DNA of 64,000 bases from Pseudothermotoga hypogea DSM 11164 = NBRC 106472 (lineage in GTDB: Bacteria; Thermotogota; Thermotogae; Thermotogales; DSM-5069): positions 1,860,001 through 1,924,000 of the forward strand of contig NZ_CP007141.1 of the NCBI RefSeq assembly GCF_000816145.1. The letters are read 5' to 3'. A program made the position numbers and the translations under genes. Numbering within the stretch: position 1 is the first letter of the stretch; every line of letters begins with the position of its first letter. The notes under the pieces are model-generated. The model saw nothing but the letters and a program-made list of their open reading frames with translations. It was not told the origin of the DNA and searched no databases. Of this stretch, positions 37,658 through 56,649 are shown piece after piece.

Positions 37658-38827
37658 TTAGCACTCGAAATCGCGGCCAAATCGAGTTAATAGATCGTAA
37701 GCTCTCTTCAACGATTCGAGGATCTTCTTCAGATTCTCAGGACAACACGCGAAGTTCAATCTTACACCCTTGGGTTCACCAAAATCCGCACCGTTGTTCA
37801 GATAGACCTTAGCTTTTTCCAAAAAGAACTTCTGCGGATTCTCTAATCCGAGGTTCGAACAATCCAGCCACATCAAGAAAGTCGCTTCTGGCAAGGGAAC
37901 GTCGATCAGCGGCATGTTTTGTTTTATGAAACTGTACGCGAAATCTCTGTTTTGACGAAGTTTCTGTAGCAAAGCTCTGAGCCATTCTTCACATTCCGTG
38001 TAGGCGATTTGCAAAGCCAAAGCTCCGAAGATGTTCGGTGTTGTCAGTTCAAAAGCTTCCAAAGCTTCGTTGTAAAGCTTTCTCAACTTCTCGTTCGGCA
38101 CTATTCCATACCCGTTCGTCAAGCCAGGCACGTTGAAGCTCTTGCCAGCGGAGTTCAAAACGATCACGTTTTCAAGACCAGCCTTGAGGATCGTCGTGAA
38201 TCGGAACGGTTCGTACACGATGTCTGCGTGTATCTCGTCGCTGATGATGATGGTCCCATACCTCGAACAAAGTTGAGCAAGTTCCTTCAACTCCTCGTAC
38301 ATCCACGCCCTTCCAACAGGATTGTGTGGGTTTGAAAGGATGATCAACTTGATCTTCCTTCTGGACAAAGTGCCTTCGAGATCCTCAAGGTCCATGACGT
38401 ATCTATCGTTCACTCTTTTCAGTCTGTTCTCCACGATCCGTCGCTTGTTTCTTCTGATCACGTTGAAGAAAGGTGGGTACACAGGTGGTTGAATGACGAT
38501 CTCATCGTTGGGTTCTGTGAGAACGTTGATGAACAACGCCATCATGGGCATAACATTGGGGCCGTCTACGATCCAACTCTTTTCCACGGAGAAACCATGC
38601 CTCTTCTCGTACCACTGAGCGATCGCTTCGTAGTATTCGCTCGGTCTGAACGTGTAGCCGAAGACCGCGTGTTCGACTCTCTTACGGAACGCCTCGAGCA
38701 TGTTGGGGCACACCTTCACGTCCATGTCCGCGATCCATGCCGGTAAGACGTCATCACCGTACTTGGCCCTGATGGCATCATACTTGACACAGTTAGAATG
38801 ACTTCTGTCTACGTACTCGATCTGCAC
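37658..38827 (-). CDS. PatB/MalY-type aminotransferase, probable cystathionine beta-lyase
   Basis: This fold-type I PLP enzyme of 389 residues belongs to the PatB/MalY group, most of which are C-S lyases that cleave cystathionine to homocysteine. It carries LPAWIADMDVKVCP near the start, SNPHNPVGRAW, and the PLP lysine in LNSAGKSFNVPGL near residue 230. The C-terminal WLDCSNLG is also typical. The GTG start lies eight bases after AAAGGAG; an ATG six bases upstream is too close to that site. It stands alone, so a role in methionine or cysteine metabolism is inferred from family only. Confidence 0.88.
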   Translation of the reverse strand: MQIEYVDRSHSNCVKYDAIRAKYGDDVLPAWIADMDVKVCPNMLEAFRKRVEHAVFGYTFRPSEYYEAIAQWYEKRHGFSVEKSWIVDGPNVMPMMALFINVLTEPNDEIVIQPPVYPPFFNVIRRNKRRIVENRLKRVNDRYVMDLEDLEGTLSRRKIKLIILSNPHNPVGRAWMYEELKELAQLCSRYGTIIISDEIHADIVYEPFRFTTILKAGLENVIVLNSAGKSFNVPGLTNGYGIVPNEKLRKLYNEALEAFELTTPNIFGALALQIAYTECEEWLRALLQKLRQNRDFAYSFIKQNMPLIDVPLPEATFLMWLDCSNLGLENPQKFFLEKAKVYLNNGADFGEPKGVRLNFACCPENLKKILESLKRAYDLLTRFGRDFEC

Positions 38828-39002
38828 AAGCATTCTCCTTTCGCAAAGTTTGGCAAGCTTTCTAACAGAAAGATAGCACACCCCGAACAGAATCAAAAAG
38901 TCTTCATTCGGAGGCAATACAACTTTGCGAAGATTGGACTTTGAACGGATACAACGATGCCTTTTTCGCCCGTTCCTCTGGTAAAATCCATTCGGTGAGA
39001 AC

Positions 39003-39443
39003 ATGTGGATCTACGATGAAGGGTTGATCAGATCGCTCCTCGTTTCCATGATAATGCAATGGATCTTTTCGTTTGTCTTCCTCGCTGTAATGTACTTCGC
39101 TGGCGTAACGTGGTTCGTGTTGGTTTTCTTTTTGCCCATCATCGCTCTGACGAACATTTTCGAGACTTTACAGTACTTCGCTTACGCGAAAGGGATCTTC
39201 ATCAGTGATTTCGAATTGGTCCTTCCAGGCGTTGGAAGAAGAAAATTCAACGCGCAGGAACTTGAAAAGATAATACTACCAAGAATGCAAAGTAAAGGCC
39301 GCTACTCAGCCACGTTCGTGTTCAAGAAAGGTTCGCGCAGTGTGATGTTTTCAACTTTGGAAAAGAGACAGGAAGTCGTTGAGCTGGTTTCAGATTTCTG
39401 CCCACACGTGCAGATCATCGACAAGTCCAAAAAATCACGCTGA
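39003..39443 (+). CDS. Small membrane protein of unknown function
   Basis: I do not recognise this 146-residue protein. Two hydrophobic helices occupy about residues 10-55, followed by a basic cytoplasmic domain resembling a PH-like/YcxB-type fold (VLPGVGRRKFNAQELEKIILP). The ATG follows GGTGAGA. It ends two bases before the convergent chemoreceptor gene. There is no functional clue from its neighbours. Confidence 0.7.
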   Translation: MWIYDEGLIRSLLVSMIMQWIFSFVFLAVMYFAGVTWFVLVFFLPIIALTNIFETLQYFAYAKGIFISDFELVLPGVGRRKFNAQELEKIILPRMQSKGRYSATFVFKKGSRSVMFSTLEKRQEVVELVSDFCPHVQIIDKSKKSR

Positions 39444-40283: not shown

Positions 40284-41045
40284 TCACTTCCCGTAGAATT
40301 GATCTATCAAGTCAACTCCACATTTGAGATCCCTGAGCCAATCGAAGAATTTTCGAACACAAGCGCCTTTCATCACTGCGCCATGCTGTGGTGCAATCTG
40401 TTGAATCTGCTTCTTCGAAACGATCTCTACCCATTTTCTGCATGCGACGCTGCTCGTCATGTACCTTCTGTGGAACAGTTCCATGTTCTTCACGTGCGAT
40501 TCGAAATCTTCGGTCTCTCGATACCTCTTTCCAGCCGGAAAAACACAAGTACCGATGTCACCTGAGAAGAGTATCTTGGCAGTCGGATCGTACAACGTGA
40601 AATTCCCAGTTGAATGCAAATAGTGCGATGGTATCAACTCGAGTACATTTCCACTCTTGAGCCTGATAACATCCCCATGATCTGGTATGGCGACCACCCT
40701 TCTTTGATCGAACACCCCGAAGTGTGGCAAAAAGCGGATCCAGAGGTTCGAGATGTAGACTTTGCTGTTCTCGGCGATCGAGAGCCACAGGATGATACCA
40801 CTCGTCACGTCGGGATCTTGGTGGGTGTAAAAGATGTGGGTTATTCTCGAGGGATCCACCACTTCGGAAACGTTCGCCAGCACTCTTGGAAACACGTGGG
40901 CACCACCTGGATCGAGCAAAACAGCTTCGTTTCCGTCGACTATCAAGTACTGGTTCGTCTGAACGATCTCTTCTTCCTTCTCTTCCCACCCAAGAAAGTA
41001 GAATTTGTGAGTTCCGTTGTCGAAGAGTAAGCTGTTCTGGATCAT
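40284..41045 (-). CDS. ODP-like diiron metallo-beta-lactamase-fold protein, probable oxygen sensor
   Basis: This 253-residue protein of the flavodiiron/ODP branch of the beta-lactamase fold lacks a flavodoxin domain. Candidate metal ligands are H75, D77 and D79 in THQDPDV, H144 in [10 protein letters not shown]163 in LFSGDIG and H221 in APQHGAV. The usual HxExDH of flavodiiron proteins is changed to HxDxDV, as in sensor-type ODPs. Such proteins bind iron and oxygen and do not need a reductase. It is translationally coupled to the soluble chemoreceptor downstream. The GAGGAGG site supports the ATG. Confidence 0.85.
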
Positions 41046-41090: not shown

Positions 41091-41762
41091 TCATCTCTCC
41101 CCAACGACCGTTCCAGGTATTCTGAGCTTTCTCTCCAACCACGCGAAGAAGAAAGATGAGATCCAAACGACTGTCAGATAGATCAGAGCGGTGATCAGAT
41201 AAACTTTGAAGAACTCGAAGTTCCTGCTCGCGATGAACTTGGCTTGTGCCATCATCTCGGGTGCGCCTATGATGTAAGCCATGGAGGTGTACTTGAGCAG
41301 GTATATGAACTCGTTCGTCCAAGCTGGAATGACGCGTCTCAACGCTTGCGGTAGGATGATCAACCTCACCGCTTGCCACTTGCTCATCCCGATGGACAGA
41401 GCTGCCCTCATCTGTCCTGAACCTATCGACTGTATCGCACCCCTTATGTACTCAGCTTGATAAGCTGCACTGTTCATTGTGAAGCCGATGAGAGCCGCAA
41501 CCAGCGGGGAAAACCTTATCCCATAGACTGGAAGACCGTAGTAGAGGATGAAGAGCTGAACAAGCATAGGAGTACCTCTTATGAGTTCTATGAACGTTGC
41601 GCTGAGAAAGCTCACCACTTTGTTGGCGTAAACACGCCAGACACACAGGAGCGTTCCAAACAGAAGTCCGAAGATCGCCGCGAAGGCGGTCATGTAGAAT
41701 GTGACGATCAGACCGTTCAAAAGCTTTGGGATCGCTTGAACGAACACCTCGGCAAAACTCAT
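41091..41762 (-). CDS. Polar amino acid ABC transporter permease
   Basis: This permease of 223 residues belongs to the HisM/GlnP family, with five predicted membrane helices and the EAA loop AALSIGMSKWQAVRLIILPQA. It ends with a basic ERKLRIPGTV tail. It overlaps the ATPase gene by four bases. This operon has two different permeases, one on each side of the ATPase, so the channel is probably a heterodimer like HisQM. GAGGAG precedes the ATG. Confidence 0.92.
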   Translation of the reverse strand: MSFAEVFVQAIPKLLNGLIVTFYMTAFAAIFGLLFGTLLCVWRVYANKVVSFLSATFIELIRGTPMLVQLFILYYGLPVYGIRFSPLVAALIGFTMNSAAYQAEYIRGAIQSIGSGQMRAALSIGMSKWQAVRLIILPQALRRVIPAWTNEFIYLLKYTSMAYIIGAPEMMAQAKFIASRNFEFFKVYLITALIYLTVVWISSFFFAWLERKLRIPGTVVGER

Positions 41763-42514
41763 CTTCTCTCCTCACCGTAAAGCTCTGTGAGCCTTCTGAG
41801 AAACTGTCTAGTCCTTTCAACCTTGGGATTCGTGAAGATCTCAGACGGAGGTCCCTGTTCGACGATCACACCGTTCTCCATGAACACGATCTCGTCCGCC
41901 ACGCTCCTTGCAAATCCAAGCTCGTGAGTGACCACGAGCATCGTCATGCCACTCTTTGCAAGGTCTATCATGACCGAGAGCACCTCGCCTATCAACTCTG
42001 GATCCAATGCGGACGTTGGTTCATCGAAGAGTATCAACTTCGGTCTCATCGCCAAAGCCCTCGCTATGGCGACGCGCTGTTTTTGACCACCAGAAAGTTG
42101 CGACGGATAAAGGTGTGCTTTATCTGCCAAACCCACCTTTCTCAACTGTTCCAAGGCTATCTGAGTCGCTTCGTCTTTCGGAAGTTTTTGAACCTTGATC
42201 AATCCTATCCTCACGTTGTCGAGGGCCGTCAAGTGATTGAACAGGTTGAAATCCTGAAAGACGAAACCGATCTTCTGTCTCATCCTGTGGGCGTTCTTAG
42301 ATGTTATCTCCTCTCCTTCCAGAAAGACTTTCCCAGAGTCTGGTTCGACCAACCTGTTTATGCACAACAAGAGCGTGCTCTTTCCAGTGCCACTCGGGCC
42401 GATTATCACCTTGGTTTCTCCTTTCTTCAACTCGAGCGACACACCCTTCAAGATCTCTGTTGCTCCATACTTTTTCCTCAGATCCACAACCATGAGGACT
42501 GGTTCCTGATTCAA
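41759..42514 (-). CDS. Polar amino acid ABC transporter ATPase (GlnQ/HisP type)
   Basis: This ATPase of 251 residues powers amino acid uptake. It has Walker A GPSGTGKSTLLLCIN near residue 40, the Q-loop FVFQDFNLF, the signature LSGGQKQRVAIARAL, Walker B LILFDEPTSALDPE and the H-loop VVTHELGFA. The TTG start overlaps the upstream permease stop and follows GGGAGG eight bases away. All four parts of the transporter are present in this operon, unlike the two CUT1 operons in this window, which lack an ATPase. Confidence 0.94.
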   Translation of the reverse strand: MNQEPVLMVVDLRKKYGATEILKGVSLELKKGETKVIIGPSGTGKSTLLLCINRLVEPDSGKVFLEGEEITSKNAHRMRQKIGFVFQDFNLFNHLTALDNVRIGLIKVQKLPKDEATQIALEQLRKVGLADKAHLYPSQLSGGQKQRVAIARALAMRPKLILFDEPTSALDPELIGEVLSVMIDLAKSGMTMLVVTHELGFARSVADEIVFMENGVIVEQGPPSEIFTNPKVERTRQFLRRLTELYGEERR

Positions 42515-43179
42515 TGCACAACCTCCCTCGTCTCGAATCCAGGTATTCTCAACTTCTTCTCAACGAAGGTCAAGATTCTGTTTGCAAAGACCGTTAATGC
42601 AAGGTATATCCCGGCGCAGAGGAGGAATATCACCATGGGTTCGTAGGTTCGCGCGATGATGTAGCTTCCCTGTCTCAACAGCTCAACCACTCCGAGCGCG
42701 TAGGCCATGGAGGAGTCTTTCAAGACAACCGTGAGTTCGTTGGTCCAAGGAGCGATGGAGAAGCGAAGCGCTTGTGGAAAGACGATGTATCGAAAGGTCT
42801 GAAAGCGCGTCATGCCTATTGAGAGGGCCGCAACGGTCTGGCCCTTGCCCACGGAAAGGATTGCCCCACGAAAGATTTGGGACTGATAGGCAGAACTCCT
42901 CAACCCCAGTCCCAGAACGCAAGCCACGAAAGGATCGAGCCTCACACCAACTTCAGCTAAACCGTAAAAGATGAGCATCAAGAGGACCAACAATGGGATG
43001 CTCCTGAAGGTCTTTTCATATATGGAACAAACGAGGCGCGGTACACGCGCCCCATAGACCTGAAAGAAACTCACCGGGATGGCTATGACGAGCCCGAGCG
43101 CCAACCCCGCCAACGTCAGCTGGATCGTCACCAACGTACCCTTCAGGAGTATCGGTAAAGACTCGACGATCAATATCAA
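42511..43179 (-). CDS. Polar amino acid ABC transporter permease
   Basis: This second HisM/GlnP-family permease of 222 residues has the EAA loop AALSIGMTRFQTFRYIVFPQA and a basic tail EKKLRIPGFE. It is clearly related to the other permease in the operon, which suggests an old duplication. The TTG start has only a weak AAGGGA site 12 bases upstream; expression may depend on coupling with the binding-protein gene 31 bases upstream. Another TTG six bases further in is also possible. Confidence 0.9.
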   Translation of the reverse strand: MILIVESLPILLKGTLVTIQLTLAGLALGLVIAIPVSFFQVYGARVPRLVCSIYEKTFRSIPLLVLLMLIFYGLAEVGVRLDPFVACVLGLGLRSSAYQSQIFRGAILSVGKGQTVAALSIGMTRFQTFRYIVFPQALRFSIAPWTNELTVVLKDSSMAYALGVVELLRQGSYIIARTYEPMVIFLLCAGIYLALTVFANRILTFVEKKLRIPGFETREVVH

Positions 43180-43210
43180 GCTGTCTATCCCTTAACCCCC
43201 CACGCACTCC

Positions 43211-43936
43211 TCAAAAGTATTTGTCGATCAACTCGTTGATCTTGCCCGTTTCGATCAGAGTTTTCAAAGCTTGATTGATCTTGTCCAAAAGCTCCTTGTT
43301 ACCCTTTCTGACGGCTATACCGTACTGTTCTCCCGTTACAATGATGCCCACGACCTTCACAGGCTTCGTCGCGGCGAATCTGTTCGCAACCGGTGAATCC
43401 AAAACTATCGCGTCGATGTTACCGTTCAAAAGATCGCTGAGAGCAAGAATGAAGGTGTCGTACCTCTTCAAGTTTCGCTCAGGTAAAAGTCCTTTCTGGA
43501 CCAAGTTCTCCGTGCACCACAGATCACCCGTCGTACCTGTTTGAACACCTATTCTGTACTTTCCAAACAGCACTGTGATCGTGAAATCCGAATCTGCCTT
43601 CACGATTATGCTCTGATCTGCAGACCAGTAAGGCATCGAGAAATCCACGACCTTTTTCCTTTCTTCCGTTATCGTCATTGCCGCGGCAGCAACATCGATT
43701 TGGCCTGCCCTCAGAGCTGGTATGAGTGAATCAAAGCTCATGTCCACGAACTTCAGTTCGAAGCCTGCGATCTTGGCTATCTCGCGCATGAGGTCCATAT
43801 CGAAGCCGACGAACTGTCCGTTCTCGATGTACTCGAAGGGTGGAAAGTCTGCACTCGTTCCCACGGTGACGGTTCTGGCGAAGAGTACGAACGAAATCAG
43901 AAGAAGCACACTTAGAAACACCTTCACTTGTTTCAC
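43211..43936 (-). CDS. Polar amino acid ABC transporter substrate-binding protein
   Basis: This is an extracytoplasmic family 3 binding protein of 241 residues. A signal peptide (VKVFLSVLLLISFVLFA) is followed by TVGTSADFPPFEY, FVGFDMDLMREIAKIAG, the ligand-binding ALRAGQIDVAAAAMTIT and ERKKVVDFSMPYW. The conserved Arg and Asp contacts for an alpha-amino acid are likely present, but the exact amino acid cannot be told. The GTG start follows GGTGAGA. It heads the four-gene operon. Confidence 0.93.
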   Translation of the reverse strand: MKQVKVFLSVLLLISFVLFARTVTVGTSADFPPFEYIENGQFVGFDMDLMREIAKIAGFELKFVDMSFDSLIPALRAGQIDVAAAAMTITEERKKVVDFSMPYWSADQSIIVKADSDFTITVLFGKYRIGVQTGTTGDLWCTENLVQKGLLPERNLKRYDTFILALSDLLNGNIDAIVLDSPVANRFAATKPVKVVGIIVTGEQYGIAVRKGNKELLDKINQALKTLIETGKINELIDKYF

Positions 43937-44142: not shown

Positions 44143-45585
44143 TCAACCTCCTGCAACGAGTGACGCAAAATCGTTCCACAGCTTTTTCAGACTCTCTTCT
44201 ATGAAAATCTTCGTCTCCTCGATCACGCGTTCACCCCTTCGAATGCGTTCTCGCAGTTTTTCAAGCATCTCTTCGATACTTTTTTCACCCGGCCCACCCA
44301 TCACCTGCCTGACTCGCACAAAGTTCTCCACCGAAAGCACCTCAGCGACCTTCGAGGGGCTCATTGTGAATCTCTTCCCCGTGAGCCTTTCAAAATTCTC
44401 CACCAATGAACCGTACCGCATGCCACTCTTGATGTACTCGGAGACTATCTGGTGCGCTTGGCGAAAACTGATTCGAAACTCTCTCACGAGATGATCGGCG
44501 AGTTCCGTCGCTGTGGAACCTGTGGAGAGTGAGAGTTCTTTGACTCTGTCTTCGTTCACGGTCATCTTCTCGATGATCTCCTTCGTCAGTTTCAAGGCTT
44601 GCTTCAAGACCTCGGCTCCATCCAAAAACTTGAACAAGACAAAATCTCCGTTCTCGTTAACGTCCTGGTACGGCGTGTTGAGAAAAGCAACCTCCACGGC
44701 ATTGAAGAATCCAAAAGAAACACTCGATCTTATCCTCAAATGTTCAAGGATAACAGGATTCCTCTTCTGTGGCATTATACTGCTGATCTGTACCAGTTCG
44801 TCAGGAAAGCTGAAGATACCAACCTCACAGGAAGCTTTATGAAGAACGTCTTGAGCAAACCTCGCCAGATCGATCGCAAGAACTTTGAGTGGATCAAGAG
44901 CCATGTTGATCCAGTTCGATGTGACGATCGCCCTGTAGGAATTTTCGATAGGCTCGAAGAAACCGAGATAATCACTCACGATCTCTCTGTCGATTCTGAA
45001 ACCTGTCGTCGTTATGGCGGCAGATCCCATGGGACAGAGGTTCACAACACGTGTGGCCAAGATCAATCCTTCCAGAACCTCCAGAGAATCGAAGGCCAGA
45101 GAGAGCAAATAATGTGCTAAGGTCGAAGGTTGGGCGGGTTGACCATGCGTGTACATGAGCAGGAATGTTCGAACGTTTTGTTCGGCCTTTTTTGATAGCC
45201 TTTCCACCAGATCGATCAATTCAGCCGCGATCTCCAGGAGCTTTTCGCGAACGCACATTCTGAAAATGGTTGCATCTATGTCGTTCCTGCTGCGCGCAGT
45301 GTGGAGGAAACCAGCCTTTTCAATACCTATCTTCTGCGATAACTTTCGCTCAATCAGAAAAACGAGGTCCTCTACGCCATCTGGTAATTTCTCATCGATC
45401 TTTTCATTTTCGAGCTCTGAAAGCGCCTGTGCAATCTCTACGACAAGCGATTTCGGTAGAATCTCAGTTTTCGCCAGCATGAGCAGGTGAGCCTCGTTGA
45501 TTCGAAAGTAATGGTTCAAGAGCTTCTTCCAGTTTTCGAAAGAGCTGTCCAGGACCGTTTCTTTGTAAACTCTCGAAAAACTCAC
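44143..45585 (-). CDS. Argininosuccinate lyase-like enzyme of the fumarase/aspartase superfamily
   Basis: This lyase of 480 residues has the superfamily signature SSIMPQKRNPVILEH near residue 270, with the catalytic serine loop. HTARSRNDIDATIFRM and THGQPAQPSTLAHYL are like those of argininosuccinate lyase. The length is close to ArgH. It is not beside argG or other arginine genes. It is the last gene of an operon with a CUT1 ABC transporter and an amidohydrolase, so it may cleave a different imported compound. Start and stop overlap with the amidohydrolase. After its stop a short open stretch (27 codons) continues without a clear start spacing. Confidence 0.82.
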   Translation of the reverse strand: MSFSRVYKETVLDSSFENWKKLLNHYFRINEAHLLMLAKTEILPKSLVVEIAQALSELENEKIDEKLPDGVEDLVFLIERKLSQKIGIEKAGFLHTARSRNDIDATIFRMCVREKLLEIAAELIDLVERLSKKAEQNVRTFLLMYTHGQPAQPSTLAHYLLSLAFDSLEVLEGLILATRVVNLCPMGSAAITTTGFRIDREIVSDYLGFFEPIENSYRAIVTSNWINMALDPLKVLAIDLARFAQDVLHKASCEVGIFSFPDELVQISSIMPQKRNPVILEHLRIRSSVSFGFFNAVEVAFLNTPYQDVNENGDFVLFKFLDGAEVLKQALKLTKEIIEKMTVNEDRVKELSLSTGSTATELADHLVREFRISFRQAHQIVSEYIKSGMRYGSLVENFERLTGKRFTMSPSKVAEVLSVENFVRVRQVMGGPGEKSIEEMLEKLRERIRRGERVIEETKIFIEESLKKLWNDFASLVAGG

Positions 45586-46457
45586 TTGACCATCTCCAAG
45601 ATGGTATTCATATTCTTGTATAGGACTTTTTCTATCTCCTCGTCACTGTAACCGACCTCGATCATCGCCCTCAGCTGTTCTTCCAGATAGACCTTCGCAA
45701 ATCCCCGTGGGAACCAACTCGAATCGGTACCGAAGATGATTCTGTCTGCACCAATGGTTTCTCTGAATTTCCTGAAGAGCGTCTGCAAAGTGACCTCGTA
45801 AGGCATCCATCTCATCCACTGGTTCGAGCCGCTCGTATCGATATACACGTTCGGACACGCCCAACAGAGGTTGAGCGTTTCGAACACGTAACCACACCCG
45901 AAGTGTGGCACGATGAATTTGATCCTCTTGAACTGCTTCGCAACGTCGTGTATGATCAACGGATTTATGTTAACGTGGTACGCGATCCCACCGGCTGCAC
46001 CCAAGATACCGAAGTGAATCAAAACGGGTATCTCGTGCGCGTTGGCAACCTCCCAAACGGGACACAGCGACCTGTCGTTCAGAGGCGTGTTGACCTTGGG
46101 TCCCAAGATTTTGTACCCCTTGAGCCCTTTTTCGATGCACCTTTCGAGCTCTTCCGCAGCACCTTCATTTGACGGATCGTGATGAGCATAACCAACGAAC
46201 CTGTCTGGATGACTCGCGACGAGTCTTATCATGTTCTCGTTACCGTTCGCTGTCACGAAGACGATCTTTTCTATGTTGTACTTCTGCGCTTCCGAGTACC
46301 ACAGTCTACAGAGTTCGTCGAAATCGTCTATCCGTTGTGGCTTGGGGAAATTCCACGCTTTCAACCATTTTTCCTTGTTTCTTTTCAACCATGGATCGTC
46401 TTCGGACTCTCTGACGAAATCCAGCGGGAAATGAACGTGTGAATCGATCAGTCTCAT
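45582..46457 (-). CDS. Amidohydrolase-family protein (COG2159 type)
   Basis: This metal-dependent hydrolase of 291 residues starts MRLIDSHVHFPLDF, the first metal motif. It continues with ANAHEIPVLIHFGI, FIVPHFGCGYVFETL and the late Asp in RIIFGTDSSWFPRGF, the usual TIM-barrel ligand order. COG2159 members include decarboxylases and lactonases acting on small acids. The second ATG is used because AAAGG is spaced eight bases from it. It overlaps the lyase gene by four bases, so the two enzymes probably act one after the other on the imported compound. Confidence 0.87.
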   Translation of the reverse strand: MRLIDSHVHFPLDFVRESEDDPWLKRNKEKWLKAWNFPKPQRIDDFDELCRLWYSEAQKYNIEKIVFVTANGNENMIRLVASHPDRFVGYAHHDPSNEGAAEELERCIEKGLKGYKILGPKVNTPLNDRSLCPVWEVANAHEIPVLIHFGILGAAGGIAYHVNINPLIIHDVAKQFKRIKFIVPHFGCGYVFETLNLCWACPNVYIDTSGSNQWMRWMPYEVTLQTLFRKFRETIGADRIIFGTDSSWFPRGFAKVYLEEQLRAMIEVGYSDEEIEKVLYKNMNTILEMVK

Positions 46458-46462
46458 CGATA

Positions 46463-47284
46463 TCATCCTTTCAGACCAGACAGCATTATGCCCCTGATGA
46501 TTTGCTTCTGGAAGATCAAAAAGACGATTATCAACGGGATCGTTGAAACTGTCGCTCCGGTCATGATCAGCTCCCAGTGCATCAGATTTTCACTCGAAAA
46601 GGTTGCCAAGCCAACAGGTAAGGTGTACATCCTGGGCTTTGAAACAACTATCAAAGGCCATAGGAACGCGTTCCAGTTGCCTATGAAATTCAAAATTGCA
46701 AGTGAAGCCAGAGCAGGTTTGACGAGTGGAAGGGCTACTCTCCAGAAAATTCCAAATTCAGATACTCCGTCGATCCTGGCGGCGTCCAAAAGATCGTCTG
46801 GTATCGTCTCCATGAACTGTTTCATGAGAAAAATCCCGAAGGCGGTGATCATACCAGGGAACATGATACCCCAGTAGGTATCTATCCAACCGAGCCTGGA
46901 CGACATCACGTACCACGGTATTATCAGCATCTCGGTGGGGATCATCAATGTGCTCAGGATGAACAGAAAGATGATGTTTCGTCCTGGAAAGCTGTACTTG
47001 GCTATCGTGTAGCCAACCAAAGAATCGAAGAACATCACAGAAAAGGTGGTCGACAGCGCGACAATCAAACTGTTGAGAAACCATCTCGGAAACAATGAAG
47101 CGCTCATTATCTTCTGGTAGTTAGCCAAGGTGGGAGACTTTGGAAACAGATAGGGCCTGTAGATCTCCCTGAACGGTTTCAAAGACGACAGAACCATCCA
47201 GAAGAAAGGGAAGATCATCACTATCGCCAGAGCAGTCAAAACGATGTAACTGACCAACTTTACCATTCTGTCGGATCTGGCCAT
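46463..47284 (-). CDS. CUT1 sugar ABC transporter permease (MalG type)
   Basis: This is a permease of 273 residues with six membrane helices and the EAA loop LLDAARIDGVSEFGIFWRVALPL near residue 180. GAGGTGGTGA precedes the ATG. It pairs with the MalF-type permease nine bases upstream. The amidohydrolase gene begins five bases after its stop codon. Confidence 0.92.
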   Translation of the reverse strand: MARSDRMVKLVSYIVLTALAIVMIFPFFWMVLSSLKPFREIYRPYLFPKSPTLANYQKIMSASLFPRWFLNSLIVALSTTFSVMFFDSLVGYTIAKYSFPGRNIIFLFILSTLMIPTEMLIIPWYVMSSRLGWIDTYWGIMFPGMITAFGIFLMKQFMETIPDDLLDAARIDGVSEFGIFWRVALPLVKPALASLAILNFIGNWNAFLWPLIVVSKPRMYTLPVGLATFSSENLMHWELIMTGATVSTIPLIIVFLIFQKQIIRGIMLSGLKG

Positions 47285-47293
47285 GTCACCACC

Positions 47294-48181
47294 TCAATAT
47301 TGAACTCTTCTGTTCAGTACTTTGAGCTGTAGTACAGTGATACTGAGTATCATGAGGAAGAGCACGACAGTCGCAGCTGCCGCTGTGCCCATGTCGAAGG
47401 ATTTGAAAGCCTTTTGGTAGATGTAGAGGACTAAGGGTAGTGTCGAGTTGAGCGGTCCGCCCGAGCCTTGATCGGTCATGTTGTATACCTGTGTGAATAT
47501 TCTCAGAAACATTATAGTCTCCATCACAGACAAAAACACTATCACTGGGTTCAGCAAGGGAATCGTTATCTTGAACAACAACTGTCTTCGATTTGCGCCG
47601 TCCACCCTTGCGGCCTCGAGGTATTCTTTTGGTATGTTTTGAAGCCCCGCAAGAAAGATGATCACACAATATCCGATCTCGACCCACACTGTCGTCGCCA
47701 CTATGGATGGCAATGCTTCCGTCGTACTCATAAGAAAATTTCTCGCTGGTAATCCTAGGAAGCTGAGAAAGTTGTTTATGACGCCGGTCGGTGGCTTTTG
47801 GTACATCCAACGCCAAACCCAACTCGTGGCAACGATCGGCGTTATGTACGGCATAACGTAGATTAGCCTGTAGAAACTTTGAAACTTTGTCACGTTGTTC
47901 AACAACAGCGCAAGTGCCAACGAGAGCACTATCACGCTTGGAACACCATAAAGAACGTACTTGAGCGTGTTGAAAAGACTGATCATGAATACCGGGTCCT
48001 TGAATATACCCACATAGTTCGATAACCCAACGAGTTTCCTGACGGGAGATATGATGTTCCAGTTGGTGAAGCTCATGTAAAATGCGGAAATCATCGGATA
48101 GAACCGTATGAAGGCGAAAAACAAAAGGGGTATCGAGAGAAAAAGGTACGCGGTCAGCACTTTCTTATGCCTCAACTTCAC
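47294..48181 (-). CDS. CUT1 sugar ABC transporter permease (MalF type)
   Basis: This is a permease of 295 residues with six membrane helices and the EAA loop YLEAARVDGANRRQLLFKITIPL. The GTG start follows GGGGTGAGATC directly. A frame open further upstream would run through a GC hairpin and has no ribosome site. No ATPase gene is in the operon, so a shared ATPase is needed. Confidence 0.92.
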   Translation of the reverse strand: MKLRHKKVLTAYLFLSIPLLFFAFIRFYPMISAFYMSFTNWNIISPVRKLVGLSNYVGIFKDPVFMISLFNTLKYVLYGVPSVIVLSLALALLLNNVTKFQSFYRLIYVMPYITPIVATSWVWRWMYQKPPTGVINNFLSFLGLPARNFLMSTTEALPSIVATTVWVEIGYCVIIFLAGLQNIPKEYLEAARVDGANRRQLLFKITIPLLNPVIVFLSVMETIMFLRIFTQVYNMTDQGSGGPLNSTLPLVLYIYQKAFKSFDMGTAAAATVVLFLMILSITVLQLKVLNRRVQY

Positions 48182-48196
48182 GATCTCACCCCAAAG

Positions 48197-48217
48197 GGGC
48201 GCGACCGAGTCGCGCCC
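48197..48217 (-). terminator. GC-rich hairpin between the binding-protein and permease genes
   Basis: A perfect 9-bp stem (GGGCGCGAC with GTCGCGCCC) closes a 3-base loop, directly after the binding-protein stop codon and just before the permease ribosome site. The minus strand lacks a long T tract, so it probably acts as an attenuator or mRNA stabiliser. Confidence 0.78.
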
Positions 48218-48222
48218 ACGTT

Positions 48223-49467
48223 TCACTTACCAACCGACTTCCAGAACTTGTCGAGAATCACTTGCTCCTCCTGTGCGGCCTCCCTGAAGGCTTGCTCGGG
48301 AGATACACCCTTGAGCCACACTTTGTCGACGGCGTCCATCATGACTTTTCTTTGAGCCGTTTCGTCCACGAAGAAGGTCGCATGTGCGTACTCGAGTCCT
48401 CTCAAGAACGGGCCGTATATCGGGTCGTTGTAGTATTTCTGAGCCACGGCAGGGTTAGCGGGAAGTTCTCCAACTTTCTCAAGCCACATCTCCATGACCT
48501 TTTCGCTCGCGAGGAACTTCAAGAACTTAATTGCAGCATCCAGTTTCTCTCCGGTGCAGTTCTTCGTGATCCCGTTCGCCCAGAAGGAAGCAAAGTTCGA
48601 TCTGATACCGTTGTGTTCGGGCAGTTCAGCTACACCGAAGTTTATACCAGCTTTCTTGAGTGCCGAGATTCTGAACGATCCATCGATGTTCATGGCTGCC
48701 GCTTGTGACGTGAAGGCAGTTATATCGTCGTTCATGAATCCTGGATAACCGACCTTGTGAACAGTTATGAGGTCGGTGTAGAACTTCAATGCTTGTGATA
48801 CTTCGTAGTACGTTACCTTTGTGTAGTCTTGGTTGTAAGGTGCTCCTCCAAACTGCCTGACGAGGACTTCCCTTATCCAATGATGGCCCTGCCCGGATGG
48901 CTGGGTCGCCAGACCGGCTTGAACTATGTTGCCCTGTTTGTCGTACTTGGTGAGCTTCTTCGCCATTTCTACCAGTTCTTGCAAGGTCCTTGGTGGCTTT
49001 TCAGGATCGAGTTTGGCTTCCTTGAAGAGATCTTTGTTCCAGAACAACGCGAGGCTTCTCACGGCTATGGGTATGGCGTATCTTTTACCCATGAACTCGA
49101 CACCTTTTGCCACGAACGGGAAGAAGTTTTTCTGGAAGTATTCATCGGAGAACTCGTTTTCTGGAAGTGGTTGCAGATAACCTGACGTGACGTACTTCGG
49201 TATCCATCCGTAGTAGAGATTCACGACATCTGGTCCGGTACCAGCCGGGACAGATGCCGCCACCTTTTCGTTGAAGGCTTCGTAAGGGAACGTCACGTGT
49301 TCGACCTCGATGTCTGGATAGAGTTTCTGAAATTCCTTGATGAGCTCGTCGATGGCTTTGACTTTCGTTTCGAAGTAGTACTGCCAGTAGACGATCTTCA
49401 CTTTGCCAAAGACTGAAACCGACAGAATGAGGATTACCACGAGAGCCGCCAGCAGAGACCTCTTCAC
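48223..49467 (-). CDS. CUT1 ABC transporter substrate-binding protein
   Basis: This extracytoplasmic family 1 binding protein of 414 residues has a signal peptide (RSLLAALVVILILSVSVFG). The mature part begins KVKIVYWQYYFETKVKAIDEL, with GTGPDVVNLYYGWIPKYV and the AFTSQAAAMNIDGSFRISAL segment typical of sugar receptors. The operon it heads encodes an amidohydrolase and a lyase and no glycosidase, so the ligand may be an amino sugar, uronate or other carbon-nitrogen compound. The GTG start follows GGGAGGTGG. Confidence 0.92.
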   Translation of the reverse strand: MKRSLLAALVVILILSVSVFGKVKIVYWQYYFETKVKAIDELIKEFQKLYPDIEVEHVTFPYEAFNEKVAASVPAGTGPDVVNLYYGWIPKYVTSGYLQPLPENEFSDEYFQKNFFPFVAKGVEFMGKRYAIPIAVRSLALFWNKDLFKEAKLDPEKPPRTLQELVEMAKKLTKYDKQGNIVQAGLATQPSGQGHHWIREVLVRQFGGAPYNQDYTKVTYYEVSQALKFYTDLITVHKVGYPGFMNDDITAFTSQAAAMNIDGSFRISALKKAGINFGVAELPEHNGIRSNFASFWANGITKNCTGEKLDAAIKFLKFLASEKVMEMWLEKVGELPANPAVAQKYYNDPIYGPFLRGLEYAHATFFVDETAQRKVMMDAVDKVWLKGVSPEQAFREAAQEEQVILDKFWKSVGK

Positions 49468-49561
49468 AACGCCACCTCCCTTTGGATTAGGTGGTACTCA
49501 GAGTGCGAGATTTGCAGAACTCCATCGAGATTTGGTTTGTTAAGCGACTTTACTAACACAA

Positions 49562-49590
49562 TGTTAAACTGCGAAAGACACACTGTCAAG
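49562..49590 (-). promoter_or_regulatory. Promoter of the CUT1-lyase operon
   Basis: A consensus -35 box TTGACA (49585-49590) and a -10 box TAACAT (49562-49567) are 17 bp apart on the minus strand. The predicted leader is about 85 bases. Confidence 0.75.
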
Positions 49591-52434: not shown

Positions 52435-54999
52435 TCAGCTGAAGTCTTTGTTCTCGAAGACAACGATCGTTCTCTCGTCTCCCTGGGTGGTTCGCCATTT
52501 ACCTAACACAAAGTAATTCAGACCGAAGTGATCGAACAATTCTTTCTCCGTTTTGAAGTGCTTCTGCATTTCCTTTATCCAACCCTGCCTGTAAAGTCCA
52601 GATTCCTCAGGGTGCCCCGAGTCGAAAACAAGAAAGCGACACTGTTTGAAGAGCCTGTGGAAAACCTCATCTGCCTTGTCTTTACCATGGTTGTAAAGTA
52701 TGTGGTGATAAACGCTCAGGAAAAGTATCACATCGGCTATCTGTGGGAGATCTTGCTTAACTACGTCCAACTGTATGAATTTGTAGTCAGGGGGTAGGTT
52801 GAGCTTCTCCCTTGGTGAGATATCTACACCCAGAACGTCCACACCATACATTAGAAAACGATAGGAAAGCTCACCTCTGTTGCAACCTATGTCTATGAGA
52901 GTTTTAGGTTTCACTCTGAGAACAAACTTTTCGACAATTTCTTTTTTCGCCTGATCGATGGTGCTTTGATAGCTTCCATCAAACGCTCCGACATACGCCT
53001 CCTGGATATATTTCACGTAAACCGGCAAAGCTTCTTGCAAATAAGGTTGCCAATACGTTATCAAGATTCCTAGAGCACCTTCGTCGCCGACGAACTGATT
53101 TGATACAACGTACGTTGGAACTGTTCTCATACCCAGAAACTTTGCGATTGCGACTCTGTGGTGGCCACTAGCAACTAAAAGAGAAACGCTATCAGGGATT
53201 CTAACTTGTTGTCGCTTCAAAGGATCAAAAACCATCAGGTTTCCATCGTTGTGAAAAGCGACTATGGGTTTCAATATTTTTCCTGTGCGTTTGATCGACT
53301 CAAAAACTTCGAGAAACTTCGAAATGATCGGTTCTGGTGGCTGCTTGTAGTATCCCTTTTCATGGAGATCCTTGAGAAATGCGTAGTAAACGGTTTTCTG
53401 ATATGGTATCCCTTTTCCAATGAACTCCTCCAAGAAATCGATGATCAAAGGCACAACGTTGTTGATGAGGAGATCCGTCGGAACCTGATTAATGAAAGCC
53501 TTAGCTTGGTTGAGTTTCATCTCAAGTTCATCTTCATAGTTGCTGATGTTCACTTTGATACCATACTCGAGAGGATTAAAGATTCTATAGCTCTTCCTGA
53601 TTTCACAATTGATTTCCGAAACTGTGTTGGAGGATACGGATACACGTTGAAGCAAGACTCTGAAAATCTCGGAGATTTGTTTTTCTAGGGAACAAACATC
53701 CTCAATGAATCTTCTATACCTTTCAGAATCATAATCATTGGACGTTATCATCTCGACGGCTTCATCAACTGTGTTGAAGATCCAGTCTTTCGGATAGAAT
53801 TCCTCTGCCACATAAAAGTTGTGGATGACTGGTTTTATACCTTTCGCCATGGCTTCCATAATAGCTACTCCATAGCCTTCGTGTATACTGGTCGAGAGAA
53901 AGAAGTTTTTATTTTCCAGAAACGAATTGATGTCGTCTTTCCACCCGACAAAATGAAACTTTTCTCTTATTCCCATCCTCTCAAGGATGTATCCAATATA
54001 CCTGTACATACGCTCATCTTGAATGGTGCCAGCCCATTGAAGGTTGTACCGTTCGTCCAGTGAGACAAGTTTTTTCAGAATTTGCACAGCTAAAACTGGA
54101 TTCTTTTTATAATTGAAATGTCCTGCAAAAGCGAGATTTGGTCCCTTGGATCTTTGCTTAAAAGTGTACTTGTTCAAATCCAAGCCATTATGGATTAAAG
54201 TCCTTTCTTTTCGTTTTAAATGATCACAATTCTGAATGGCCGTCTCTAAAACGTTTTGAGCAACAAAGATCACTTCGTCAATTTTTTCCCATTTTATAGA
54301 TCTGAGAAAATCCGGTCTGAGAGATTCATAACCATGAAGTCTGCACAGAATCCGTTTCCCCATCTTCTCCAACTTGTTCGTGATCTCCACCGCCAGCTCG
54401 TTCGCCCATTCGAGCCAGACGATGTCGGCCCACTTGTAGGCTTGAACTATCTGATTTCCATCTGTCGTCACGATCAATTTCACTTCAAAAACGTTCGAGA
54501 GCACCTGTGCGATGTCCTTTATGAAGTTGTCCAAACCTGGCAAGCAAAAGATCGCGATTTTCTCAGGCCTTTTGAATTTTATCTTTGCTTGCTCGAACTT
54601 CTCCTTCATCTGTGGTAGGTCGCTCAATTGTGCGGCTTTCGAATAATAATGCAACGCCATGGGAACGTTGTTCTGTGCGAGTTGTGTGTCTCCCAAAAGA
54701 TCGTACACTTCCCAAGTTTTGTCTTTGATCCTCGTCAGATAGCGCCAAGATTCGAAGAAATTCTTCTTCTCGAACAAGACCTTCGAAAGATTGAAAAGCA
54801 CATCGTCGTTGGTCGGATCGAGCTTCAAAGCTTTTTGAAAGTGTTCCAAAGCTTTGTCCAACTCATTTTCTTGGTAGAAAAGAACTCCAAGCATGTTGTG
54901 CCTCATCGACTCGGGTTCGATCTTTTGGGCGAGCTCCTTTGCCTTGGAAAAATCTTTCAAACTGACACACCTTTCGATCTCTCTAAACAGTTCTTCCAT
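52435..54999 (-). CDS. TPR / GT4 glycosyltransferase / ParB-like / SAM-methyltransferase fusion
   Basis: This 854-residue protein combines several domains. Residues ~1-140 are TPR-like repeats (ELDKALEHFQKALKLDPTND). Residues ~148-430 are a GT4 glycosyltransferase with donor motif HEGYGVAIMEAMAKG. A helical linker follows. Residues ~575-640 resemble a ParB/sulfiredoxin-type domain, with SGHHRVAIAKFLGMRTVP. Residues ~690-854 are a SAM methyltransferase with motif I TLIDIGCNRGELSYRF. It lies directly after the flagellin gene, so it may glycosylate and methylate flagellin or another surface glycan. The middle of the gene is visibly richer in A+T than its neighbours, a sign of transfer. The ATG is seven bases after GAGG. 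Confidence 0.85.
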   Translation of the reverse strand: MEELFREIERCVSLKDFSKAKELAQKIEPESMRHNMLGVLFYQENELDKALEHFQKALKLDPTNDDVLFNLSKVLFEKKNFFESWRYLTRIKDKTWEVYDLLGDTQLAQNNVPMALHYYSKAAQLSDLPQMKEKFEQAKIKFKRPEKIAIFCLPGLDNFIKDIAQVLSNVFEVKLIVTTDGNQIVQAYKWADIVWLEWANELAVEITNKLEKMGKRILCRLHGYESLRPDFLRSIKWEKIDEVIFVAQNVLETAIQNCDHLKRKERTLIHNGLDLNKYTFKQRSKGPNLAFAGHFNYKKNPVLAVQILKKLVSLDERYNLQWAGTIQDERMYRYIGYILERMGIREKFHFVGWKDDINSFLENKNFFLSTSIHEGYGVAIMEAMAKGIKPVIHNFYVAEEFYPKDWIFNTVDEAVEMITSNDYDSERYRRFIEDVCSLEKQISEIFRVLLQRVSVSSNTVSEINCEIRKSYRIFNPLEYGIKVNISNYEDELEMKLNQAKAFINQVPTDLLINNVVPLIIDFLEEFIGKGIPYQKTVYYAFLKDLHEKGYYKQPPEPIISKFLEVFESIKRTGKILKPIVAFHNDGNLMVFDPLKRQQVRIPDSVSLLVASGHHRVAIAKFLGMRTVPTYVVSNQFVGDEGALGILITYWQPYLQEALPVYVKYIQEAYVGAFDGSYQSTIDQAKKEIVEKFVLRVKPKTLIDIGCNRGELSYRFLMYGVDVLGVDISPREKLNLPPDYKFIQLDVVKQDLPQIADVILFLSVYHHILYNHGKDKADEVFHRLFKQCRFLVFDSGHPEESGLYRQGWIKEMQKHFKTEKELFDHFGLNYFVLGKWRTTQGDERTIVVFENKDFS

Positions 55000-55048
55000 C
55001 TTCACACCTCACACATCAATTTTCTATCCCGGCGAAGAACTTTCCTTC

Positions 55049-55080
55049 AAAAACAAAAGGCGGGCGTGAGCCCGCCTTTT
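55049..55080 (-). terminator. Intrinsic terminator after the flagellin gene
   Basis: An 11-bp stem (AAAAGGCGGGC with GCCCGCCTTTT) closes a 4-base loop and is followed on the minus strand by a T-rich stretch. It ends the highly expressed flagellin message, so the fusion gene downstream probably depends on read-through or its own promoter. Confidence 0.88.
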
Positions 55081-55095
55081 GTGTCCTTGGAAGTG

Positions 55096-56649
55096 TTATC
55101 GCAACAGCTGCAGCACCGTCTGTGGCAATGCGTTGGACTGTGCCAACATTGCCATGCTGGATTGCATCAGGATCTGTTGTTTGGTGAACTCCATCATTTC
55201 TTTGGCCATGTCCGCATCTCTGATTCGAGACTCTGCAGCGGTCAAGTTCTCTGCAGCTACTCCAAGGTTGCTTATCGTGTGTTCTAGCCTGTTCTGCACT
55301 GCTCCAAGTCTTGCGCGTGCAGTGCTGACTTTGTGGATCGCTGCGTCTATGACCATTATAGTTCTTTCCGCACTGTTCTGATCCGTGACGCGCAAAGAGT
55401 CTTCCGTAAGTCCAAGCGCGGCTGCTCTCATGTCGTCCAATCCAGCTATCATGTTGTGTCCTTCGTTCGCTCCTATCTGGAAGATCAACGAAGTGTCTTC
55501 ATACCACCTTCTTTCCGCCCTCACAACACCGCTGTCTATCACTTCTTCCAATGGCAAGGCTCCACCGAAGGAGTTGATGTTGTAAACATTAGTTAGCCAA
55601 GTGAAGATAATACCCCTGGGACCAGCTGCAATGTTTATGTTGAATGATTGATCGGTAGTATTGTAGCTAATGGATCCTGAGACTGTCCCATAGATAGCCA
55701 GACCATCGCTGAAATCAACTATGGGTGGGGTCGCAAGGCCTGTCTCGCTGAAGTAGTTGATTCTCACGTCCAGAAGGCTCGTGGCGGCTCCAGCAAACTG
55801 GCCCACCTCAACGACGTAGGAACCTTCGTTCACATCTTCAAAAGCTAAGATGAGCGATGTTGCAAGCGTGACTCTGAACGAATTCACAACGGCAGTTACC
55901 GTATTGATGCCTATGCTGGCATCAGAAACAACGAATTCGAATCTGAGACCACCGACTGTCGTTGCATATGACACAAAGTTTGCCTCATTAGACACAGTGA
56001 ACGAAGCCACGGTTGCCCCGCCAGCGAGTAAAGACACGGTTGCACCTGAGATTTGTATTGACAATGCTCCCAAAGATCTGCCAGCAATGTTAAAGCTAAT
56101 CACTCCACTGCCAGTAACATTGGAACCGCTTGCAAGTTCGATCCCTCTTAGGTTGGCAGACTGCGAAGCTTTCAGATCGAAGTTACCACCGGTCACCACT
56201 TTCACGTCTGGATTGTGCCTGAAGCTTTCTATCTTCCCATCCAAAAGCTTCATCGTGTTGAACTCGGTCGTTCTGGCGATCCTGTCGATCTCTTCTCTGA
56301 GTTGGTCGAGCTCGGCTTGGATCTGGTTCCTATCAACGTTGGTGTTGGTGTCGGATGCGGCTTGAACTGCGAGCTCTCTCATCCTCTGAAGGATCGAATG
56401 GACCTCTGTCAGTGCTCCTTCTGCTGTTTGGATCAACGATATGGCGTCCTGTGCGTTCTTGACTGCCATGTTCAAACCTCTGATCTGGCCTCTCATCTTT
56501 TCGCTTATCGCAAGACCAGCTGCATCGTCTCCCGCTCTGTTGATCCTCAGACCAGAGGAGAGTTTCTCGAGCGTTTTGCTCATCGAGTACTGTGTCTCAC
56601 TCATGCTCCTCCAAGCGTTCAATGCGTTGATGTTGTGGTTGATACGCAT
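55096..56649 (-). CDS. fliC: Flagellin
   Basis: Flagellin of 517 residues is the filament subunit, exported by the flagellar type III system. The conserved D0/D1 N-terminus begins MRINHNINALNAWRSM and contains SSGLRINRAGDDAAGLAISE. The C-terminal D1/D0 part contains RARLGAVQNRLEHTISNL and ends ALPQTVLQLLR. The centre (~170-400) is a serine-, threonine- and asparagine-rich variable domain that could carry glycans. GGGAGGTG precedes the ATG. Expression is set by a sigma-28 promoter about 80 bases upstream. Confidence 0.96.
   Translation of the reverse strand: MRINHNINALNAWRSMSETQYSMSKTLEKLSSGLRINRAGDDAAGLAISEKMRGQIRGLNMAVKNAQDAISLIQTAEGALTEVHSILQRMRELAVQAASDTNTNVDRNQIQAELDQLREEIDRIARTTEFNTMKLLDGKIESFRHNPDVKVVTGGNFDLKASQSANLRGIELASGSNVTGSGVISFNIAGRSLGALSIQISGATVSLLAGGATVASFTVSNEANFVSYATTVGGLRFEFVVSDASIGINTVTAVVNSFRVTLATSLILAFEDVNEGSYVVEVGQFAGAATSLLDVRINYFSETGLATPPIVDFSDGLAIYGTVSGSISYNTTDQSFNINIAAGPRGIIFTWLTNVYNINSFGGALPLEEVIDSGVVRAERRWYEDTSLIFQIGANEGHNMIAGLDDMRAAALGLTEDSLRVTDQNSAERTIMVIDAAIHKVSTARARLGAVQNRLEHTISNLGVAAENLTAAESRIRDADMAKEMMEFTKQQILMQSSMAMLAQSNALPQTVLQLLR

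Follow-up and report, generated by a model that had tools for sequence, protein, structure and literature searches.

A conserved CUT1 transporter operon in Pseudothermotoga hypogea carries an argininosuccinate-lyase-like enzyme and may break down an amino-sugar/C4-dicarboxylate conjugate

The window analyzed in this study is a 64,000-nucleotide stretch of the Pseudothermotoga hypogea DSM 11164 genome (contig NZ_CP007141.1, positions 1,860,001 to 1,924,000), and the genome itself is a single contig of 2,165,416 bases. On the minus strand of the window, from 49467 to 44143, five packed genes form an operon for a solute-binding protein, two permeases, an Amidohydro_2 enzyme, and a lyase resembling argininosuccinate lyase (ASL). 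We consider it moderately probable that the encoded proteins take up and degrade a compound in which an amino sugar, probably glucosamine, is joined to a C4-dicarboxylate, and that fumarate is released. The features are as follows.

48223..49467, minus strand: CUT1 solute-binding protein, 414 amino acids, GTG start, signal-like N-terminus; PF13416/PF01547
47294..48226, minus strand: CUT1 permease F (UgpA/MalF type); PF00528; UgpA model 138.9 bits, below cut-off
46463..47284, minus strand: CUT1 permease G (UgpE/MalG type); PF00528; UgpE model 147.1 bits, below cut-off
45582..46466, minus strand: Amidohydro_2 TIM-barrel enzyme, 294 amino acids; PF04909, 130 bits
44143..45585, minus strand: ASL-like lyase, 480 amino acids, GTG start; PF00206 and PF14698 (ASL_C2); predicted to release fumarate, not ArgH
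49561..49589, minus strand: possible sigma-70-type promoter TTGACA-17-TAACAT, 5' of the operon, 10 of 12 matches; weak

The five genes named by the initial annotation are all present, with their families assigned by Pfam. From the binding-protein gene to the lyase gene the intergenic gaps are -4, +9, -4, and -4 bases; the four-base overlap between the lyase and amidohydrolase genes that had been pointed out is real, and the same overlap is found at three of the four junctions. A family-1 solute-binding protein with two MalF/MalG-type permeases identifies the transporter as a CUT1 importer, and no ATPase gene lies within the five-gene operon. The closest solved chain to the binding protein is 5ci5 (91 bits). 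Binding proteins encoded close to the lyase gene elsewhere share 44-91% identity with it.

The distribution of the lyase was determined among the 103 genomes placed in the window's phylum, with presence defined as E<=1e-60. The lyase was found in 20 of them; within the window's genus, it was found in one of five genomes, the window's own. The identical five genes in identical order are shared by these 20 genomes and by spirochaetes, and such a set exceeds chance. The pairing of lyase and amidohydrolase, for which a neighbourhood search had been suggested, is conserved: the amidohydrolase gene is directly upstream of the lyase gene in all 20 phylum loci with enough sequence (L080 is truncated) and in all three spirochaete loci. 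Further members of the lyase clade, beside the same transporter or part of it, are present in Alphaproteobacteria and Deinococcus. Neighbours were mapped by tblastn around 39 loci. The plasmid loci examined were 16 of 278 lyase-matched records, of which the best 40 were listed, together with L042 and L054 from binding-protein matches. L043, L050, and L053, with no CUT1 transporter alongside, were set apart as outgroups, and a genome-contig scan by exact peptide patterns gave four loci. The plasmid gene tables are incomplete, and absences there are soft. On the Thermus oshimai plasmid (L042:8935-11889), a binding protein 51% identical to that of the window stands with two permeases and no lyase alongside, and these transporter genes adjoin genes annotated for aromatic-compound degradation.

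An alignment was made of 33 lyases (from 15 of the 20 phylum genomes, three spirochaetes, 11 Alphaproteobacteria, and four Deinococcus) with E. coli ArgH, the P. hypogea ArgH, another ArgH, and three outgroup lyases; the tree was built from these rows plus 11 further ArgH rows. The 33 lyases form one clade with support of 100/98, and the 14 ArgH rows form a separate clade with support of 100/100; for this tree the program flagged uneven composition and long branches in the outgroup. The P. hypogea genome contains three PF00206 genes. The first (L001) is purB-type by reading and reaches only 62.6 bits with the argH model. The second (L002) is argH, directly behind argG (argG by hidden Markov model, HMM) and followed by an argC-like gene (by eye). 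The third is the window lyase, about 31% identical to the genuine ArgH. The check for another argH beside argG elsewhere in the genome, suggested in the initial annotation, thus found one, and the window lyase is not the only argH-type gene. The remark that no arginine genes are close by also holds: the distance to argG and the second argH-type gene is about 0.9 Mb, and no other was seen by eye among the open reading frames of about 37.6-56.6 kb, where no dedicated search for other arginine genes was made. The genuine ArgH (L002:1468-2655) is short, at 395 amino acids compared with 457 for the E. coli enzyme, and in the tree it and its relatives occupy a very long branch.

The presence of argG was compared with the presence of the lyase. 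Among the 20 phylum genomes with the lyase, argG scores over cut-off only in the five that belong to the window's family, and each of these also carries a separate ArgH. The other 15 have no argG over cut-off, with weak matches near 20 bits in three of them, and their other argH-profile matches stay below 100 bits except for a second lyase fragment in G073. Several of the argG-less genomes are incomplete; G056 and G072, however, are single contigs with 99% completeness. The two lyase pieces of G073 are on separate contigs (L072, L080) and perhaps represent two copies or a split assembly. A role in arginine biosynthesis was rejected because of the separate argG-argH pair, the separate clade, and the lack of argG in 15 of 20 carriers; such a role is very unlikely. 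The argG-argH pair elsewhere and the argG-less carriers support the earlier proposal that the operon serves uptake and breakdown of an unusual compound rather than arginine synthesis.

The conserved residues of the lyase clade were then compared with those of the superfamily. The SSxMPQKxNP signature and the conserved Thr-His, Ser, Lys, and Asn of the fumarase/aspartase/ASL superfamily are present in the clade. R100, N101, H147, S268, S269, K274, and N276 are kept in 33 of 33 clade lyases and T146 in 32 of 33; these are catalytic residues of the superfamily. Q266, R275, V278, and H282 are also found in all 33. The ArgH loop YNKDxQED, which presumably touches the arginine half of the substrate in ArgH, is lost in the clade. 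In its place is mostly N-x-P-(Y/F)-x-D-x-N-(E/D), with D308 in 33 of 33 and N310 in 32 of 33 lyases.

The genes next to the lyase point to its product. Of 14 informative loci, from three families of the phylum outside the window's, 13 have the fumarase alpha and beta genes directly 3' of the lyase (12 of 13 genomes). L070 and L079 were left out of this count because their contigs stop at the end of the lyase gene or no more than 170 bases beyond it, and L072, with a partial fumarase at the contig end, was counted as positive. Class I fumarase was confirmed by Pfam and NCBIfam in L029 and by Pfam in L030. Malic enzyme follows 3' by HMM in L071 and L078, and same-looking neighbours were seen by eye in L073 and L074; in L068, an Ldh_2-type malate/lactate dehydrogenase takes its place. 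Since fumarase, sometimes followed by malic enzyme, is next to the lyase, and since the superfamily residues are kept, the predicted product of the lyase is very probably fumarate. The equilibrium of 2SL, another fumarate-releasing lyase, disfavours breakdown unless fumarate is low, as described in the available part of PMC9706529; a similar need for low fumarate would explain the fumarase linkage.

The other half of the substrate was approached through the neighbours in other phyla. In Alphaproteobacteria the operon order is solute-binding protein, two permeases, lyase, UgpC-type ATPase, and often a sugar kinase; in L045 the binding-protein gene is on the opposite strand, away from the permeases. 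Among the 11 alphaproteobacterial loci, the UgpC-type ATPase is 3' of the lyase in all 11, a PfkB or ROK kinase is on the same strand in seven, a divergent ROK regulator is present in seven, and a PIG-L protein of 776-816 amino acids without a signal-like N-terminus (by eye) is present in six. NagB is found in two of the 11; one has a protein of NagB-II type that scores below cut-off. In the window's phylum, a ROK protein is upstream in 17 of 20 loci. A GlmD-like protein follows fumB in L069 (113.7 bits, below cut-off), and a GH84 N-acetylglucosaminidase is upstream on the opposite strand in L029. The Deinococcus actinosclerus operon includes a small PIG-L protein, a larger PIG-L protein with carbohydrate-binding domains, and a PfkB kinase; the best matches of the small PIG-L are the MshB, Mca, and BshB2 models, all below cut-off. 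The other three Deinococcus loci have only the lyase, solute-binding protein, and permeases. In two spirochaete loci (L033:3160-11670 and L036:10613-13902), the operon is followed by HAD phosphatase-like, NagA-like, and alanine racemase-like genes, which were named by eye and are homologous between the loci.

According to the available part of a review, every LmbE/PIG-L enzyme that had been identified at that time acts on an N-acetylglucosamine (GlcNAc) or N-acylglucosamine core (PMC4101496). Together with this review, the PIG-L, sugar kinase, NagB/GlmD-like, and ROK neighbours point to glucosamine or a derivative as the other predicted lyase product. The initial annotation came close in proposing a sugar-amino acid adduct, in that an amino sugar would be part of the conjugate, but the context gives a C4-dicarboxylate unit as its partner. 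Its second suggestion, an amino-uronate, found no support in the neighbourhoods examined.

The amidohydrolase has PF04909 and the HxH...H...H...D pattern of Amidohydro_2 metal-dependent hydrolases. H10, H12, H151, H188, and D248, presumably the metal ligands, are invariant in all 14 aligned enzymes (14 of the 23 loci having it). A structure model with a mean predicted local distance difference test (pLDDT) score of 68, usable for fold only, has its nearest folds in ACMSD, gamma-resorcylate decarboxylase, LigW, LigJ, and lactonase-type structures; the model of the binding protein (pLDDT 51) was too poor for use. By the tblastn neighbour map, the amidohydrolase is absent from all 11 alphaproteobacterial and all four Deinococcus loci. 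Its partly complementary distribution with PIG-L suggests that it is an N-deacylase, and its reaction in the pathway is speculative. A one-for-one swap between amidohydrolase and PIG-L was rejected as a rule and is a tendency only, as some loci have both and others neither.

These data can be arranged in a putative pathway. The CUT1 binding protein and the two permeases would import the conjugate with an ATPase encoded elsewhere. The ASL-like lyase would take off the C4 unit by beta-elimination as fumarate and leave the amino sugar. Fumarate would be converted to malate and then pyruvate by fumarase and malic enzyme, and glucosamine would be phosphorylated and deaminated to fructose-6-phosphate. 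The amidohydrolase would most likely strip an N-acyl group from the sugar, as proposed for the alphaproteobacterial PIG-L; this assignment is a guess. In P. hypogea, the single class I fumarase alpha match, the two PIG-L proteins, the GlmS-like gene, and the SIS gene are all unlinked to the operon, so the downstream steps would need unlinked genes.

Several results weigh against this pathway. Fumarase is beside the lyase in none of the five loci of the window's family, none of the three spirochaete, none of the 11 alphaproteobacterial, and none of the four Deinococcus loci. The 13 positive loci are spread over three families within a single class and are not independent events, and L031 has 663 bases 3' of the lyase without fumarase. 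The NagB-II, GlmD, and small PIG-L matches are all below curated cut-offs. No NagB (PF01182) over cut-off was found in the P. hypogea genome, in which the GlmD-like query gave only a weak match within a 617-amino-acid GlmS-like frame, and the remaining NagB-II candidate is a SIS protein with 64.9 bits, far below cut-off. In fold, the amidohydrolase is nearer to decarboxylases, hydratases, and lactonases than to amidases. L071, L074, and L077 carry both PIG-L and amidohydrolase, and five of the 11 alphaproteobacterial loci carry neither. The neighbour counts were made without a random control.

The known compound that would best fit an amino-sugar/C4-dicarboxylate conjugate is bacillithiol (BSH), or its glucosaminyl-malate (GlcN-malate) or N-acetylglucosaminyl-malate core. 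As described in the available part of PMC4360819, bacillithiol is Cys-GlcN-malate and is made by Deinococcus radiodurans. With a bacillithiol-type substrate, the enzyme would act as a C-O lyase on a malyl glycoside. Enzymes for the C4 and glucosamine parts recur near the lyase (fumarase; GlmD, NagB, or kinase), and a cysteine desulfidase homologue is present in one locus only: in L078, the region between fumB and malic enzyme encodes a protein homologous to E. coli CyuA (28% identity over 429 columns, E 2e-40), with no significant match to the serine deaminase TdcG. Within about 9 kb of the lyase, the Aminobacter locus has a metallo-beta-lactamase protein whose match to a sulfur-transferase/dioxygenase model, at 561 bits, falls short of the cut-off of 625, and the Roseinatronobacter locus has an annotated cysteine dioxygenase that matches no NCBIfam model. 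The link to bacillithiol is suggestive only, and bacillithiol as the substrate is speculative and rather unlikely. Sulfur genes are near only a few loci. In Deinococcus, a cytosolic GlcN-malate lyase would endanger the cell's own bacillithiol precursor unless tightly regulated, because D. radiodurans makes bacillithiol (PMC4360819, available part).

BshC was searched in the 103 genomes of the phylum. None had BshC over cut-off, with two weak matches of about 18 bits, and the controls Bacillus, Thermus, and Deinobacterium did score. Recycling of the host's own bacillithiol was rejected on this result. A bacillithiol pathway in a phylum without BshC would be scavenging, which itself is not contradicted. 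A complete route for the breakdown of bacillithiol or of its GlcN-malate core can be drawn, and we regard it as doubtful, less likely still than the substrate alone. In it, the CUT1 importer would take up the compound, an amidase would free cysteine or acetyl, and an ASL-family glycosyl-malate lyase would yield fumarate and glucosamine; the amidase would be Amidohydro_2 in some phyla and PIG-L in others, and non-makers would feed on bacillithiol makers. Among the literature matches listed, there was no description of the operon, of bacillithiol breakdown, or of a GlcN-malate lyase.

Other substrates have to be weighed against an amino-sugar/C4-dicarboxylate conjugate. The chemistry nearest to ASL would be required if the substrate were an N-substituted aspartate of a sugar, such as the Amadori product fructosyl-aspartate or the Heyns product glucosamine-N-succinate, which a C-N lyase would split exactly like ASL into fumarate and an amino sugar. 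The kinase, SIS/NagB, and fumarase neighbours would have a place in such a pathway too, and weak matches of the PfkB and SIS neighbours to fructoselysine-6-kinase and deglycase models were found. These matches, however, rank under the ribokinase and NagB-II/GlmD models, and this substrate gives no role to PIG-L, the amidohydrolase, the GH84 enzyme of L029, or the cysteine desulfidase homologue. We consider it unlikely.

GlcNAc-asparagine, a remnant of N-glycans, is a clearly weaker candidate. The amidohydrolase would cut the glycosylamide bond, and the lyase would act like an aspartase on aspartate or on the conjugate. Fumarate, an amidase, and the GlcNAc-type neighbours would all be accounted for, including GH84 (by HMM), annotated nagZ and GH20 genes about 6 kb or more away, and the NagA-like genes of L033 and L036 (by eye). 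The lyase is closest to ASL, which removes N-substituted groups, and not to aspartase (285 vs 55 bits). The annotations beside the 14 clade plasmid loci, whose gene tables are incomplete, include neither an aspartylglucosaminidase nor an asparaginase, and no HMM search for them was made elsewhere.

It is very improbable that the substrate is an aminopolycarboxylate, such as ethylenediamine disuccinate (EDDS) or iminodisuccinate, or S-succino-cysteine, with the sugar genes as bystanders. The window lyase matches the PDB chains 6g3d/6rx8, which are listed as 'Argininosuccinate lyase' and which we take to be EDDS lyase, with 120-122 bits, but its match to ASL is higher (149 vs 122 bits). Amino-sugar genes recur beside the lyase, and CUT1 transporters are generally understood to carry sugars or sugar conjugates. 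For S-succino-cysteine there is the precedent of 2SL, a fumarate-releasing lyase class I enzyme (PMC9706529, available part). Least probable of all is a normal or surplus argininosuccinate lyase that serves arginine synthesis and stands in a sugar operon by chance: the clade lyase passes the NCBIfam argH equivalog cut-off (TIGR00838) in five of the 20 lyase-bearing genomes (the window's G000, with 285.5 vs 279.5 bits, and G008, G009, G010, and G071), and 12 of 14 annotated plasmid members examined bear the label argininosuccinate lyase, but the argG-argH pair, the argG-less carriers, the separate clade, and the lost ArgH loop all stand against it.

The surroundings of the operon were also inspected. 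A pullulanase gene is upstream, with about 310 bases between. The promoter scan total was barely above that of shuffled sequence (8 vs a mean of 6.2, standard deviation 2.3). A complete polar-amino-acid ABC transporter (41091-43936, same strand), with its binding protein recognised by HMM and the two permeases and the ATPase by eye, begins about 200 bases 3' of the lyase. The scores of this binding protein with the lysine/arginine/ornithine and glutamine binding-protein models stay below their cut-offs. This transporter is for uptake, not arginine biosynthesis; it might be co-transcribed with the lyase operon or might serve amino-acid uptake. Further downstream on the same strand are an ODP-type metallo-beta-lactamase-fold protein (40284-41045) and a pyridoxal-phosphate aminotransferase class I/II protein (37658-39004), which we take to resemble the MalY/PatB C-S lyase type. 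At 52435-56649, a flagellin-like gene adjoins a gene for an 856-amino-acid protein with tetratricopeptide repeat, glycosyltransferase, and methyltransferase regions (by eye); flagellin glycosylation is a possible function of this pair.

The window lyase is a ready source of misannotation because the NCBIfam argH cut-off is passed in five genomes, and annotations credit the arginine step to organisms without argG. If the proposed function is true, the ASL superfamily would gain a reaction from a conserved operon, patchy in its distribution, that acts on an as yet unrecognised amino-sugar conjugate. Were bacillithiol the substrate, the operon would show how a major bacterial thiol returns to the carbon, nitrogen, and sulfur cycle.

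The system was compared with known systems. ArgH (TIGR00838) shares with the window lyase the superfamily, the PF00206 and ASL_C2 layout, the signature, and the catalytic residues; the window lyase differs in its separate clade, in the replaced YNKDxQED loop, in being mostly without argG in the phylum, and in the linkage of its clade to a CUT1 transporter, an amidohydrolase, and often fumarase. EDDS lyase is an ASL-like enzyme recruited to a non-arginine substrate and releases fumarate. It is alike in this respect and unlike in its lower similarity to the window lyase than that of ASL, and we know of no sugar transporter in its context. 2SL is also a lyase class I enzyme in a breakdown operon and releases fumarate; it differs in its C-S bond, its yxe locus, and its preferred substrate N-acetyl-2SC (available part of PMC9706529). 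Bacillithiol metabolism (BshA/B/C and the Bca amidase) resembles the proposed pathway in its Cys-GlcN-malate chemistry and in PIG-L acting on a glucosamine core (available parts of PMC4360819 and PMC4101496), whereas the known enzymes make bacillithiol or process its conjugates. Amidohydro_2/COG2159 enzymes (ACMSD, gamma-resorcylate decarboxylase, LigW, LigJ, and PDC lactonase) share the fold and the metal-ligand pattern with the amidohydrolase, with 12-19% identity among the 50 structural matches listed and another gene context. The system is an ASL-family lyase with a CUT1 importer, in which known kinds of protein are newly combined, rather than a new kind of system.

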